From the NCBI RefSeq assembly GCF_002750855.1, contig NZ_NWUC01000014.1, forward strand, positions 1 through 39,818: a stretch of 39,818 nt of DNA, given 5' to 3'. The position numbers and the translations under genes are program-made. Positions 1,488 to 8,681 of this stretch are shown here, piece by piece. Under the pieces are notes generated by a model. It was given only the letters and a program-made list of their open reading frames with translations, did no database searches and was not told the origin of the DNA. Position 1 is the first letter of the stretch. Every line of letters starts with the position of its first letter. The stretch comes from Neopararhizobium haloflavum (lineage in GTDB: Bacteria > Pseudomonadota > Alphaproteobacteria > Rhizobiales > Rhizobiaceae).

Positions 1488-3067
1488 CCACGGTGGTATC
1501 GGGCGGGCGCGCCAAGCGTCCGCCCGCCATCATCGCTGTGCCCGCGATGCTTGTCGCAACGGCGATGGTGATTCCGATCTTCTATCTCGTCTTTCGTGCG
1601 ACCGGGGCTGATATCGCCACGGTCGCATCACTCGTTTTTCGTCCGCGCACTGCCGGTCTGCTGGCCAACACGGCAGCCCTGGCCCTTGGCGTCCTGACCC
1701 TCACGACACTGATCGCCGGCCCCCTTGCCTGGCTCACCACCAGGACCGACCTGAAGGGCGCAAGGCTGGTGAATATCCTCGTCACGCTCCCGCTGGCTGT
1801 CCCAGGCTACGTCATGGCCTACGCACTGATCGGATTGTCGGGCTATTACGGTTTCATGAACACCGTCTTCGGCGTCACCCTCCCGCGCCCGCAAGGCTGG
1901 TTCGGCGCCACGCTGGCTCTCAGCCTCTACACCTTTCCCTATATCTATCTGAACCTTCGCGCCGCACTCGCGGGCATCGACCCGAGCGTTGAGGAAAGCG
2001 CGCGCGCGCTCGGGTCGTCGCCGCGCGACGTCTTCTTTCGCGTCACCCTGCCTCATTTGAAGCCGGCGCTCTTCGCCGGCTGGCTCGTTGTCGGGCTCTA
2101 CGTCATCGGGGATTTCGGCGCCGTGGCGCTGATGCGTTACGAGGTCTTCTCCTACGCGCTCTATACGCAATACGCCGCCGCCTACGACCGCATCTACGCG
2201 GCCTGGCTCGCGCTCATTCTCGTTGCCCTCGCGGTCTCGGTGATCTGGTGGGAGAGCCGACTGCGCGAAGGCGCCCGTTTCGCCCGCACGGGAACAGGCG
2301 CTGGCGCCGCCCGTCGCATGGTGCGGCTCGGTCCCGCCGGCCAGTCGATTGCCTGGCTCTTCATCACCCTGATCGTCGCCGCCGCACTTGGGCTGCCGGT
2401 CGCAGTGCTCGTCTTCTGGCTATCGGCGGAACCGATCCTGCCGGCCCTTCCCGCACTCCTGACCAGCTTCCTCCAATCGCTGTCAGCCGCCGTGCCCTCG
2501 GCCGTGCTTGCCGGTCTGCTCGCCCTTCCCGTGGCTGTCCTGGCGGTTCGCTATCCCTCGCCGCTGTCCTTGCTTGTCAATCGGCTGGCCTTTCTCGGCT
2601 ACGCCGTACCGCCCCTGGCCTTCGCACTGGCCTTCGTCTTCTTCGCGCTGGGCGCTGCGCGGCCGCTCTACCAGACGCATGCCCTTCTGGTGATCGCCTA
2701 TGCGCTCGCGTTCCTGCCACTTGCTCTCGGCCCAATCCGCTCGGCGCTCTACCTTGCCCGTCCTTCGCTCGAGGAGGCGGCCCGCTCGCTCGGCTACGGG
2801 CCACTGGCAGTCCTGCGGCATGTCGTATTGCCGGTCATCCGCCGCGGCGTCGTTGCCGGCATGGTTCTGGTCTTCGTCATCGTCATGAAGGAGTTGCCGA
2901 TCGCGTTCCTTCTCGCACCGACGGGATTCCGCTCACTAGCCGTCACCCTCTTCAGCCGGACGTCGGAAGGCATGATGGTCGATGCGGCACCCTATGCCGC
3001 AGCGATTATTCTTTTCTCCGGCCTGTTTGTTGGGGTAGTGCTCAGGCATGAGACGAAACATGAGTGA
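1484..3067 (+). CDS. fbpB: Ferric iron ABC transporter, fused permease
   Basis: Inner-membrane permease of the iron importer, 527 residues with about twelve hydrophobic segments. Two binding-protein-dependent permease domains are fused in one chain, as in FbpB/AfuB. Each half has an EAA loop that docks on the ATPase: EESARALGSS starting near residue 170 and EEAARSLGYG near residue 430, each followed by a pattern ending in LP. The start is TTG at 1484, overlapping the binding-protein stop. The 3' end overlaps the ATPase gene by 20 bp. Substrate is inferred from the binding protein; thiamine or 2-aminoethylphosphonate transporters share this architecture but have different receptors. Confidence 0.88.
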   Translation: MTTVVSGGRAKRPPAIIAVPAMLVATAMVIPIFYLVFRATGADIATVASLVFRPRTAGLLANTAALALGVLTLTTLIAGPLAWLTTRTDLKGARLVNILVTLPLAVPGYVMAYALIGLSGYYGFMNTVFGVTLPRPQGWFGATLALSLYTFPYIYLNLRAALAGIDPSVEESARALGSSPRDVFFRVTLPHLKPALFAGWLVVGLYVIGDFGAVALMRYEVFSYALYTQYAAAYDRIYAAWLALILVALAVSVIWWESRLREGARFARTGTGAGAARRMVRLGPAGQSIAWLFITLIVAAALGLPVAVLVFWLSAEPILPALPALLTSFLQSLSAAVPSAVLAGLLALPVAVLAVRYPSPLSLLVNRLAFLGYAVPPLAFALAFVFFALGAARPLYQTHALLVIAYALAFLPLALGPIRSALYLARPSLEEAARSLGYGPLAVLRHVVLPVIRRGVVAGMVLVFVIVMKELPIAFLLAPTGFRSLAVTLFSRTSEGMMVDAAPYAAAIILFSGLFVGVVLRHETKHE

Positions 3068-4118
3068 TGCGGAAAGCAATAGCGACCATCAGGAGCCGCT
3101 TCTCGCGGCCAAGGGGCTGGTTCGCCATTTTCCGACAGCGAAGGGCGCAGCTGTGGCAGGCGTCGACTTCGACGTACGTGACGGCGAACTGCTGGCGCTG
3201 CTCGGCCCCTCCGGCTGCGGCAAGACGACCACGCTGCGGCTGACCGGCGGCTTCGAACGTCCCGACGCCGGCACGATCTGGCTGGCGGGCCGCGAGATCA
3301 CCCGCCTTCCCCCGGAAAAGCGGGGCATCGGCTTCGTCTTTCAGGACTACGCCCTTTTTCCGCATCTCGATGTCGCGCACAACGTCGCCTTTGGCCTTCG
3401 AGGACGGCCCAAGGGGGAAATCGAAGCACAAGTCCGAGAGATGCTTGCGCTTGTCGGGCTTGCCGATCTCGGCCATCGCATGCCGCATCAACTGTCCGGC
3501 GGACAGCAGCAACGCGTCGCACTGGCTCGCACCCTTGCCCTGCAGCCCGCGCTGGTGCTGCTGGACGAGCCGTTTTCCAATCTGGACGCGGCAATGCGTG
3601 TGGAGACCCGTCAGGAAGTCCGCAATCTTCTGAAACAGACCGGTTCGGCCGGCATTCTCGTGACGCACGACCAGGAGGAGGCGCTGGCGCTGGCAGACCG
3701 CATCGCTGTGATGGATGCGGGGCGCATTCTGCAGATCGGAACGCCCGACGCCGTATACCGCAATCCGGCGAGCGAGTTCGTGGCCCGCTTCATCGGCCGA
3801 TCCAACATTCTAGAGGCCGAAGCAACGGGAAGTGTCGCGCAAACCGCTTTCGGCCCGTTCACGCTGGAGCGGAACGCGACTGGCGCGGTCCGCCTTGCCG
3901 TGCGCCCGGAGCAGATCGTGCTGACGCCGAGCGACAGCCATCCCGACGGCGTCGTGATCGGTCGGGAATTCCGTGGTCACGATCAACTCTATTGGGTACG
4001 GACGAAATCAGCGGACCTTCTCGCCTTGGCTGGCCCCAACACGATGCTGGATGTCGGAACCGCAGTCCGCCTGACAACCAGCGAACCCGTCGCGCTGTTC
4101 GACGGAGCGGCCGTCTGA
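3048..4118 (+). CDS. fbpC: Ferric iron ABC transporter, ATP-binding protein
   Basis: ATPase that powers the iron importer. From the ATG at 3048 it is 356 residues: Walker A GPSGCGKT (53-60), Q-loop in GFVFQDYALF, signature LSGGQQQ (149-155), Walker B LLDEP (171-175) and switch histidine in THD (207). A C-terminal TOBE-like domain of about 110 residues follows, as in the FbpC/PotA/MalK subfamily. ATG at 3060 is an equally possible start (352 residues), placing the start codon next to the permease stop. Last gene of the operon; the next unit has its own promoter at 4145. Confidence 0.87.
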   Translation: MRRNMSDAESNSDHQEPLLAAKGLVRHFPTAKGAAVAGVDFDVRDGELLALLGPSGCGKTTTLRLTGGFERPDAGTIWLAGREITRLPPEKRGIGFVFQDYALFPHLDVAHNVAFGLRGRPKGEIEAQVREMLALVGLADLGHRMPHQLSGGQQQRVALARTLALQPALVLLDEPFSNLDAAMRVETRQEVRNLLKQTGSAGILVTHDQEEALALADRIAVMDAGRILQIGTPDAVYRNPASEFVARFIGRSNILEAEATGSVAQTAFGPFTLERNATGAVRLAVRPEQIVLTPSDSHPDGVVIGREFRGHDQLYWVRTKSADLLALAGPNTMLDVGTAVRLTTSEPVALFDGAAV

Positions 4119-4144
4119 GGCACCGTATTTCACCGCTTGCGAAT

Positions 4145-4169
4145 GGAACCATAGACTGCGCTCGCCGTT
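4145..4169 (+). promoter_or_regulatory. Candidate EcfG/RpoE2 general-stress promoter
   Basis: GGAAC (4145-4149), 16 bases, CGTT (4166-4169): an exact match to the -35/-10 consensus of alphaproteobacterial EcfG-type sigma factors (GGAAC-N16/17-CGTT). The -10 lies 31 nt before the ATG of the 24-codon gene at 4201, leaving a short leader with a ribosome site. Two more exact matches precede genes at 7707 and 23477. Confidence 0.6.
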
Positions 4170-4200
4170 GTGCTCACACTGAAGTGAACGGAGAGAAGTC

Positions 4201-4275
4201 ATGAACAGCATCATCTACATCGTCGGTCTTATCGTGATCGTCATTGCGATCCTGTCCTTCCTCGGTCTCACCTGA
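4201..4275 (+). CDS. 24-residue single-pass membrane microprotein
   Basis: ATG at 4201, 24 codons, TGA at 4273-4275. The product begins MNSIIYIVG, continues with an unbroken run of Ile, Val, Leu and Ala, and ends FLGLT: almost entirely one transmembrane segment. A good ribosome site (GGAGAG, 4190-4195) lies 5 nt upstream. It sits between an EcfG-type promoter (4145-4169) and an intrinsic terminator (4304-4336), so it forms a complete transcription unit. From memory, very similar tiny hydrophobic proteins are annotated as hypothetical in rhizobia, but I cannot check this. Function unknown; it may modulate a membrane protein or respond to envelope stress. Too short for most gene callers. Confidence 0.62.
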   Translation: MNSIIYIVGLIVIVIAILSFLGLT

Positions 4276-4303
4276 AGAACATTCGGACAGCAAACCGGAA
4301 CAG

Positions 4304-4336
4304 AGCGGCAGCGCCAACCTGGCGAGGCCGCTTTTT
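4304..4336 (+). terminator. Intrinsic terminator after the microprotein
   Basis: Stem AGCGGC (4304-4309)/GCCGCT (4327-4332), symmetric AG/AG internal bulge, inner stem CGCCA (4312-4316)/TGGCG (4320-4324), 3-nt loop ACC, then TTTT (4333-4336). This is an eleven-pair hairpin plus U tract, a classical rho-independent terminator. It separates the microprotein unit from the oxidoreductase at 4355 and argues against an upstream TTG start for that gene. Confidence 0.72.
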
Positions 4337-4354
4337 CACGCGGGCATCAACCAC

Positions 4355-5578
4355 ATGACGGACCAAGGCGAGCCTGACCAGGATGATCTGCGTGGCGGGC
4401 AGCTGCTTTGGGAAGCCGCCGATTTCGACCCTCAGCCGCTTGGAAGGGATGACCGGACGAATGTGCTGGTTGTCGGGGCAGGCATCACGGGATCCCTGAT
4501 CGCACAGCACATCGCCGCGCGCGGCATCAACGTTACCGTGGTGGACCGCGAGAAGCCGGGGCGTGGAAGCACGCTCGCCAGCACGGCCATGCTGCAGTGG
4601 GAGATTGACAGCCCTTTGCTGGAACTGGCCGAACGGTATGGTTTCGATCATGCCACCCGCATCTATCAGCACAGCGTCGAAGCTGTTCGTGGGTTGAGCG
4701 CCCTTGTGCGCGACCAGGCGATCGATTGCAGTTTTGCCGACCGCCCCTCTCTCTATATCGCGGCCGGAGAAGCCGGCCCACGCGAATTGCTGCACGAACA
4801 TCAGGCACGCCAGCGGGCCGGACTGCCAGGCACATATCTGGAACATGCCGATCTTCTCTCGCGCTTCGGCATAGATCGCGCAGCCGCCATCGCCTCGCCT
4901 GGCTCGGCGGAAGCCAATCCCGCCTTGCTGGCACAGCATCTCTTGCGGGATGCGTGCCGCAATGGCGCCCGTCTGATCAAGGACGAGGCGCTATCCTATG
5001 ATAATGCCGGCCGCTCCGTGGGCGTTGCCTTCGCTTCCGGCCATCTCGTCGAAGCGGAGCACGTGCTGCTGGCCACAGGCTATGTCATGCCGGACTTCGT
5101 TCCATCCACCTTGCATTCGATTTCCTCGAGTTTCGCGCTCGCCACGCCGCCACAATCGGCAGCGGCCCTTTGGCCGGCGCGCGCCCTGATCTGGGAAGCC
5201 TCGGAGAGCTACGCCTATTTGCGCACCACGCAGGATGATCGAATCATCGTCGGGGGCGAAGACGAGCCTGATGTCTCCGATCCTGAAGCGCGGAACCGCA
5301 TGATGTCGGGCAAGCGGGAGGCACTGCTCGCAATTCTGCAGGCGCTCTGGCCGCACGGACGGATCGAAGCCGATCGAATGTGGTCCGGCGCGTTCGGCGA
5401 GACGACCGACGGGCTGCCGTTGATCGGACCGGTGCCGTCGCACGGCCGCATCCTTGCCGCCTATGGCTATGGCGGAAACGGCATCACCTTCTCCTTCATG
5501 GCTTCGCGCATCCTCGCCGATATGGTGGCGGGGAAGCGTGCGGCGTGGCATGACGATTTCGCTCTCGATCGGGACTGA
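4355..5578 (+). CDS. FAD-dependent oxidoreductase (DAO family)
   Basis: Flavoprotein of the D-amino-acid oxidase/GlpD/OrdL fold, 407 residues from ATG 4355. An FAD dinucleotide-binding motif VVGAGITGS lies at about residues 39-47, and the family C-terminal block is present (FGETTDGLPLIGPVP followed by AYGYGGNGITFS). Such enzymes oxidise secondary or primary amines or amino acids; the substrate cannot be read from sequence. There is no signal peptide, so it is probably cytoplasmic. An in-frame TTG at 4244 would extend it, but that extension overlaps the microprotein and its terminator and is rejected. No strong ribosome site precedes 4355. The thiolase follows 81 bp later. Confidence 0.8.
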   Translation: MTDQGEPDQDDLRGGQLLWEAADFDPQPLGRDDRTNVLVVGAGITGSLIAQHIAARGINVTVVDREKPGRGSTLASTAMLQWEIDSPLLELAERYGFDHATRIYQHSVEAVRGLSALVRDQAIDCSFADRPSLYIAAGEAGPRELLHEHQARQRAGLPGTYLEHADLLSRFGIDRAAAIASPGSAEANPALLAQHLLRDACRNGARLIKDEALSYDNAGRSVGVAFASGHLVEAEHVLLATGYVMPDFVPSTLHSISSSFALATPPQSAAALWPARALIWEASESYAYLRTTQDDRIIVGGEDEPDVSDPEARNRMMSGKREALLAILQALWPHGRIEADRMWSGAFGETTDGLPLIGPVPSHGRILAAYGYGGNGITFSFMASRILADMVAGKRAAWHDDFALDRD

Positions 5579-7595: not shown

Positions 7596-7620
7596 GGAAC
7601 AGATCGGTAGGTTGGGCGTT
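7596..7620 (+). promoter_or_regulatory. Candidate EcfG/RpoE2 general-stress promoter
   Basis: GGAAC (7596-7600), 16 bases, CGTT (7617-7620) matches the EcfG consensus exactly and points toward the YihY/BrkB gene, whose ATG is 86 nt downstream. Nothing else recognisable occupies the 7487-7706 intergenic region. Confidence 0.58.
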
Positions 7621-7706: not shown

Positions 7707-8681
7707 ATGAACGACAGCACGACGAACACCGCTCCTGAAAGCCGGGGACGCCGGGCAGACTCGCCTCGCCAAATTCCTAAGCGCGGCTGGTGGGACATCG
7801 GCTGGCGCATCTGGCGCAATATCGGCGACAACCGCATCATGCTGGTCGCCGCCGGCGCGACCTTCTATCTTTTGCTCGCGCTGTTTCCGGCACTGGCTGC
7901 CTTCGTGTCGCTCTATGGGCTGGTGGCCGATCCCGTATCGATCGGCGACCAGATCGCCTTTCTCGGTCGCTTGCTGCCATCGGGCAGTCTCGACATCATC
8001 GAAAGCCAGCTCGACGCACTCGCCTCCCAGGATGCCAGCGCCCTCAGCTTCGGCTTCGTTGCAGGTTTGGTGATCGCGCTTTGGAGCGCGAACAATGGGA
8101 TCAAGACGCTCTTCGACGCACTCAACATCGTCTACAACGAACGTGAAAAGCGCAGCTTCATCAGGCTCAACCTGTTTTCTGCGGTCTTCACCATGGGCGG
8201 CATCCTGATCGGGATCGTGCTGATCGTATCCGTCGGCGTTGTTCCAGCCATCATCGCCTTTCTGCGACTTGGCGATTATGTGGACTTGCTGATTGCGACC
8301 TTGCGCTGGCCCGTCATGTTGGTCTTCGTCCTCACCGGCATCAGCCTGCTCTATCGGTTCGGACCGAGCCGAAAACGCGCCAAATGGCGCTGGCTGGTTC
8401 CAGGCGCTCTCTTCGCCACCATTTTCTGGATCATCGCCTCCGCAGCGTTTTCATACTATCTGCAGAACTTTGCCGACTACAATGCGACCTATGGCTCGCT
8501 CGGTGCAGTCATCGGCTTCATGACCTGGACGTGGATATCCGTCATCATTCTGCTTGTCGGTGCACAACTGAACGCCGAGATCGAGCACCAGACAGCAAAC
8601 GACACGACGGTTGGCAGCGCCGCACCGATCGGCAAGCGCGGCGCCTTCATGGCCGACGAAATCGGCGTCGAGGCGCCATAG
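7707..8681 (+). CDS. YihY/BrkB family inner-membrane protein
   Basis: 324-residue integral membrane protein with about six hydrophobic segments. Family blocks are visible: GWWDIGWRIWRNIGDNRIMLVAAG near the N terminus (shown only in part as family evidence), FYLLLALFPAL, a central LWSANNGIKTLFDALNIVYNE and a C-terminal YGSLGAVIGFMTWTWIS. The family was once called ribonuclease BN and is now regarded as membrane proteins of unclear, perhaps transport, function. The charged N-terminal tail is cytoplasmic by the positive-inside rule. The ATG at 7707 lacks a strong ribosome site. Likely stress-induced if the promoter at 7596 is real. Confidence 0.85.
   Translation: MNDSTTNTAPESRGRRADSPRQIPKRGWWDIGWRIWRNIGDNRIMLVAAGATFYLLLALFPALAAFVSLYGLVADPVSIGDQIAFLGRLLPSGSLDIIESQLDALASQDASALSFGFVAGLVIALWSANNGIKTLFDALNIVYNEREKRSFIRLNLFSAVFTMGGILIGIVLIVSVGVVPAIIAFLRLGDYVDLLIATLRWPVMLVFVLTGISLLYRFGPSRKRAKWRWLVPGALFATIFWIIASAAFSYYLQNFADYNATYGSLGAVIGFMTWTWISVIILLVGAQLNAEIEHQTANDTTVGSAAPIGKRGAFMADEIGVEAP

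Follow-up and report, generated by a model that had tools for sequence, protein, structure and literature searches.

A conserved 24-codon gene behind an EcfG-type promoter in Neopararhizobium haloflavum and a possible membrane role for its product

Introduction

A 192-nucleotide (nt) segment of the Neopararhizobium haloflavum genome carries what looks like a stress promoter, a ribosome-binding site, a 24-codon open reading frame (ORF) and a terminator, and raises the question of whether so short an ORF is a gene, how it is controlled, and what its product might do. The segment lies at positions 4145-4336 of the window, by which we mean the whole stretch of DNA analyzed, 39,818 nt long, comprising one entire contig (NZ_NWUC01000014.1) of a 4.17-Mb genome (assembly GCF_002750855.1). 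Its promoter is of the type recognized by EcfG; under stress, PhyR sequesters NepR, which frees EcfG. Our answer, weighted toward its supported parts, is that the segment is on balance probably a complete gene for a 24-residue, single-span inner-membrane protein, which would be made as cargo of the EcfG stress regulon and would act on the membrane as a whole.

Results

All elements of the gene lie on the forward strand. The promoter (4145-4169) is an exact match to GGAAC-N16-CGTT, with GGAAC at 4145-4149 and CGTT at 4166-4169 on either side of the 16-nt spacer. A ribosome-binding site, GGAGAG (4190-4195), was read from the sequence five nt before the ATG at 4201, which opens the ORF MNSIIYIVGLIVIVIAILSFLGLT (4201-4275, with TGA at 4273-4275). 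Past the stop codon is an intrinsic terminator (4304-4336), whose hairpin (4304-4332) consists of six pairs, an AG/AG internal loop, five further pairs and a 3-nt loop, followed by UUUU at 4333-4336. Folding of 4296-4340 gave -24.8 kcal/mol (z -4.0), which none of 200 shuffled sequences equaled, and within the longer stretch 4270-4345 the value was z -3.4, with 2 of 200 shuffles as good. The hairpin at 4304-4336 is absent from the list of a simple terminator scan, which we ascribe to its internal loop. The sequence-only reading of this locus had described the same four elements, including a terminator of eleven pairs, and each was found. The peptide combines small size, selection on its codons and one hydrophobic span, the combination looked for in small single-span membrane proteins, the span being predicted from the residues.

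To ask whether the ORF is conserved, we searched for its homologues over increasing distances. The single 24-residue peptide, searched against 61 genomes including its own, matched in 25 at E<=10, in 20 of these at E<=0.01, and copies 96 percent identical occur in the three other genomes of the genus. A search across the order had been proposed in the earlier reading, and with a profile built from 24 members it returned homologues in 102 of 397 genomes at E<=1e-5, the threshold at which membership was counted. Matches above that value, mostly partial and inside long frames, were excluded; with such partial matches included, the order tally at E<=0.1 is 132 genomes. At E<=1e-5, homologues were also found in 30 of 385 genomes in the search of the class and in 45 of 398 in that of the phylum, 14 of the latter lying outside the class. 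Among the best 80 of 289 confirmed loci from a scan of named genomes, carriers include Sinorhizobium, Agrobacterium, Bosea, Devosia, Methylocystis and Paracoccus, as well as the betaproteobacteria Propionivibrio and Pseudacidovorax.

The 286 distinct homologous ORFs retained from these loci each have a start codon, score sufficiently against the profile and carry G, A, S or C as residue 9, and in 272 of them the length is exactly 24 codons. Nine loci yielded no qualifying ORF, thirteen loci fetched for other purposes were left out, and one of the 286 is doubtful (a second match of 40 residues at locus L258). Three of the 286 resemble alphaproteobacterial members, yet come from records labeled Solirubrobacterales, Scytonema and Opitutus (L071, L076 and L103), and these are perhaps contaminating contigs.

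The sequence-only reading had staked the gene on codons conserved with a synonymous pattern of substitution, and this pattern was found. For 270 distinct 24-codon ORFs, compared in 3000 pairs of 60-90 percent identity, the ratio of non-synonymous to synonymous change per site (pN/pS) was 0.34 in frame, versus 0.86 and 3.1 in frames +1 and +2, respectively. Mean entropies at codon positions 1, 2 and 3 were 0.85, 0.24 and 1.39 bits, so that the third position is the most variable, and the window ORF differs from that of a same-genus relative by 8 synonymous changes over 18.3 sites and 2 non-synonymous changes over 53.7 sites. Since the ORF is conserved across genomes and under purifying selection in its own frame, we regard it as almost certainly a real coding gene, as far as comparison of sequences can tell, and the codon test rules out a spurious ORF. 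The claim of an overlooked microprotein gene is thus borne out by the 286 homologous ORFs, their fixed length of 24 codons and the purifying selection on them. In the 272 members of 24 residues, G9, L18 and G22 are invariant (at position 9 the ORF filter had already restricted the residue to G, A, S or C), V12 is present in 268, Y or W occupies position 6 in 271, and the last residue is R in 139. The window member has no charged residue.

To evaluate promoter association across the family, we dropped the three ORFs with doubtful phylum labels (L071, L076 and L103, of which only L103 has the motif) and examined the rest. A relaxed motif, GGAAC-N16/17-NGTT, was present within 150 nt upstream of 165 of 265 alphaproteobacterial ORFs, 83 of them with the strict CGTT form. 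In the same 265, the reversed motif was found upstream of none, the downstream control gave 2 and the opposite strand 23, and 100 single-base shuffles gave a mean of 0.75 and a maximum of 4. These counts ignore relatedness; of 214 distinct peptides, 134 are encoded at least once behind the motif, and with the loci of the named-genome scan removed, the motif remains in 108 of 195. In 117 of the 165, the end of the motif and the start codon are 20-49 nt apart. One example is the Sinorhizobium meliloti member MNQIIYLVGLVVIVIAILSFFGLS (strain 4H41, L138; the same peptide is found in strain Ak57), where GGAAC-N16-CGTT starts 50 nt upstream. Outside the class, the relaxed motif was found in none of 18 ORFs (13 assigned by kinship, 5 by record title). 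Membership of the general stress response, which the sequence-only reading had asserted, is supported across the class by the site in 165 members and by its absence from all 18 ORFs outside the class, though not uniformly, as the other 100 class members lack the site.

Taken alone, the motif is weak proof, because the 4.17-Mb genome contains 60 exact GGAAC-N16-CGTT sites versus 44 for the reversed pattern; as evidence for a gene by itself, it was rejected. Both family members of this genome, however, have one of the 60 sites upstream, starting at a distance of 56 nt for one and 52 nt for the other; the second member is a paralogue that has the same exact promoter and stands just before a DUF3309 gene. 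For a given start, the chance of a site in a 60-nt stretch is about 4e-4, and for both, if independent, about 2e-7. The genome also contains nepR (52 bits), phyR and a CsbD gene side by side (L306), and exact sites lie upstream of two of them, ending at a distance of 45 nt from nepR and 52 nt from the CsbD gene. A third stress-type site was seen near phyR (L307). We take CsbD, DUF3309 and the like to be cargo of the EcfG regulon; CsbD shares the exact site here and the paralogue precedes DUF3309, but both belong to larger, annotated families, unlike the microprotein.

We surveyed NepR in 147 of 151 listed alphaproteobacterial genomes (G224, G500 and G680 were left out, and the genome G000 was checked separately), and outside the class in 8 of 14 genomes plus 3 reached through named loci. 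NepR was present in 72 of 75 genomes with motif-bearing members (71 over the curated cut-off) and in 66 of 72 class genomes with at least one motif-less member (65 over the cut-off). Among the genomes reached through named loci, all 18 alphaproteobacterial ones had it and none of the 3 betaproteobacterial ones did, and outside the class it was found in 0 of 11 (the 8 and the 3 together, one of which, G1073, contributed none of the 18 ORFs). Promoter and system therefore go together between classes and not within the class, and a strict link of NepR to the motif inside the class was rejected. For the window gene, the promoter is upstream and PhyR and NepR are encoded in the genome, and we are confident that EcfG controls it, to the extent that motif and gene content are a guide.

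The gene stands between an ABC (ATP-binding cassette) transporter operon and a gene for a flavin adenine dinucleotide (FAD)-dependent oxidoreductase. The upstream neighbor, an ABC transporter ATP-binding protein (ABC_tran, TOBE_2; 3048-4118, forward strand), ends 26 nt before the promoter, and a related gene is also upstream in two same-genus loci (L010 and L011). The oxidoreductase (DAO; 4355-5578, forward strand) has its first ATG, a start picked by eye, 18 nt past the terminator. The window holds a second exact GGAAC-N16-CGTT site on the forward strand at 7596-7620, 86 nt before a gene for a YihY/BrkB-type membrane protein (7707-8681).

Comparison with known families placed the peptide in none of them. 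It had no match at E<=10 in Pfam or among solved structures, a single match far below the cut-off in NCBIfam, and only weak matches in PHROGs (best E 0.016). A tblastn search of plasmids with the 24 residues gave no match, perhaps through the low-complexity filter. Six of 24 family members matched PF25659, the YohP family, weakly (best E 0.11). Homology to YohP, DUF3094 or a plectrovirus protein was not accepted on E-values this weak.

In the published record, strings of the family's core peptide gave no match in the literature searched, which also returned nothing on EcfG with a small membrane protein or small ORF, and nothing joining YohP and Alphaproteobacteria. In one S. meliloti record, CP090106.1, the ORF (L150:1895-1969) is absent from the gene table, which is itself incomplete by design. 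The closest description is of SEP6 of S. meliloti, which, according to PMC10117765, is a novel protein of fewer than 30 residues with a predicted transmembrane helix, conserved in Hyphomicrobiales, as the microprotein is; tagged SEP6 was recovered there chiefly in the P100 pellet, the fraction containing membranes and ribosomes. Our guess, made from this description, is that the S. meliloti member may be SEP6. If so, translation of the protein is known, and what is new would be its link to the stress regulon and how widely the family occurs.

Discussion

The proposal that these results lead to is as follows. Transcription by freed EcfG would run from the promoter at 4145-4169 to the terminator at 4304-4336 and yield a short, monocistronic mRNA, and the peptide would insert into the membrane as one helix. 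It would most likely self-associate through the face that carries glycine G9, as YohP does through G15. Its action would be on the membrane as a whole, through changes in packing, in permeability or in potential, and would thereby ease the cell's passage into a protected state of lower activity. The function in this scheme is what we infer, and its best functional analogue is YohP of E. coli (PF25659, 27 residues), which is likewise a tiny, single-span, stress-linked membrane protein. At the best ungapped offset, the YohP core IIFLIGLLVV pairs with IIYLVGLVVV of the microprotein, and both this offset and HHalign align the dimerization residue G15 with G9. In favor of the comparison, E. coli YohP is equaled in score by 72 of 5000 shuffled versions of its sequence and outscores the rest. 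PMC7549839 reports that G15 is required for YohP dimers, and that of PMC12719787 that YohP lowers membrane potential and fluidity and that homologues outside the gammaproteobacteria were already reported. By this analogy, a YohP-like mode of action may be considered, tentatively.

Several observations weigh against this proposal, some against the comparison with YohP and some against stress control. The similarity to YohP is modest, with an HHalign probability of 65 over 11 columns. Other YohPs are also matched in score by their shuffles (62, 83 and 349 of 5000 for those of genomes G000, G051 and G005). In a search with PF25659 (cut-off 27 bits), the window ORF was unlisted at E<=10 and the paralogue reached 11.2 bits, so we do not count the ORF as a member of the YohP family; among the 24 members compared with Pfam, two unrelated models, DUF3094 (one member, E 0.028) and the plectrovirus protein (two members, E 0.029), had better E-values than the 0.11 of YohP. 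The window member is uncharged and lacks the flanking lysines of YohP, and its EcfG-type promoter is a further difference. A separate, true YohP is encoded in the same genome (MLKFIGGTVGVIFLIGLLVVIGILSLIF, 45 bits; L309:327-410, corresponding to G000:C10:121626-121709), and no GGAA-type stress site was found in the 200 nt upstream of it.

With respect to control, 100 of the 265 alphaproteobacterial members have no site. In 48 of these, a one-mismatch version lies within 120 nt, compared with 11 for the reversed motif, 20 on the opposite strand and 9 downstream in the same 100; outside the class, the one-mismatch version occurred in 1 of 18, versus 4 reversed. The opposite-strand control shows a background (23 of 265), which we read as probable promoters of divergent stress genes. 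In the family f35, all 15 members lack the standard site though all 10 of their genomes carry NepR. Some f35 loci (L066, L167, L188, L194-L196 and others, in genomes of 6-9 Mb) have, by eye, GGAACGTT or CGAAC-type sequences, which suggests that the promoter has changed in this group. NepR presence hardly separates motif-bearing from motif-less alphaproteobacterial genomes. Nor is EcfG control a built-in property of the protein, since homologues outside the class have been retained with no such promoter.

Other explanations of the conserved peptide differ in how well they meet this evidence. KdpF and CydX are small proteins that act by binding a partner, and the microprotein could likewise bind, and steady or tune, a single larger membrane protein that the cell makes in response to the same stress. 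AcrZ and MgtS are of this type as well, according to PMC12719787. The invariant residues would suit a protein interface, YihY/BrkB-type genes lie near about 10 distinct members, among them the members from each of the four genomes of the genus (a lower bound, many loci holding only 300 nt of flank), and at 23 of 129 loci an ORF on the same strand that begins no more than 250 nt away encodes a member of a single family of proteins of about 300 residues with a SYVDWPAIFAG-type start. Most loci, however, have other neighbors, the window gene is bounded by a promoter and a terminator of its own, and the 300-residue protein had no match in the window genome in a search that had no positive control; as an obligate partner it was rejected on that result. 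A partner-specific subunit thus seems somewhat unlikely. The 300-residue family directly follows the microprotein at L014, L024, L054, L056, L058, L093 and other loci, and the one member checked had no Pfam or NCBIfam match over the cut-off.

A membrane-acting type I toxin held down by antisense RNA would also be small and hydrophobic, and TisB and DinQ share size and a single hydrophobic helix with the microprotein; PMC3567139 describes DinQ as a 27-residue, single-span SOS peptide with an antisense RNA. At E<=1e-5 the family is present one to three times in a genome, in some cases as tandem copies, which would agree with such a role. The 20-49 nt between motif and start codon in most motif-bearing members, however, leaves little room for a long structured leader, and scans of 3900-4600 found no sigma70-type promoter on either strand and no Rfam match at E<=1, so that, unlike for TisB and DinQ, neither a long leader nor an antisense gene was found at the locus. 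A class-wide stress promoter also fits a cargo gene better than a toxin, which we therefore consider improbable. That the transcript works as a small RNA or leader, with the ORF incidental, is scarcely credible, since selection acts on amino acids in one frame and 272 of 286 ORFs have 24 codons; the codon test contradicts an RNA-only gene.

The reading that we prefer remains a stress-made membrane peptide acting on the membrane as a whole. A bolder form of it, which we consider doubtful, is a class-wide stress effector in which a G9 dimer would lower membrane potential or fluidity and bring on a protected resting state, as the EcfG counterpart of YohP from a separate or very anciently split family; if this is true, it would rank with the smallest bacterial proteins of broad conservation. 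Much of the EcfG regulon is without a known job: according to PMC3616915, no function is predicted for 150 of the 202 genes induced by rpoE2 in S. meliloti. A peptide of fixed length with three invariant residues offers a testable handle on a membrane effect, and the homologues outside the class, which lack an EcfG promoter, allow the same effector to be compared in nature under different regulation. As far as its conservation and promoter indicate, the microprotein is likely to be part of how these bacteria protect their membranes.
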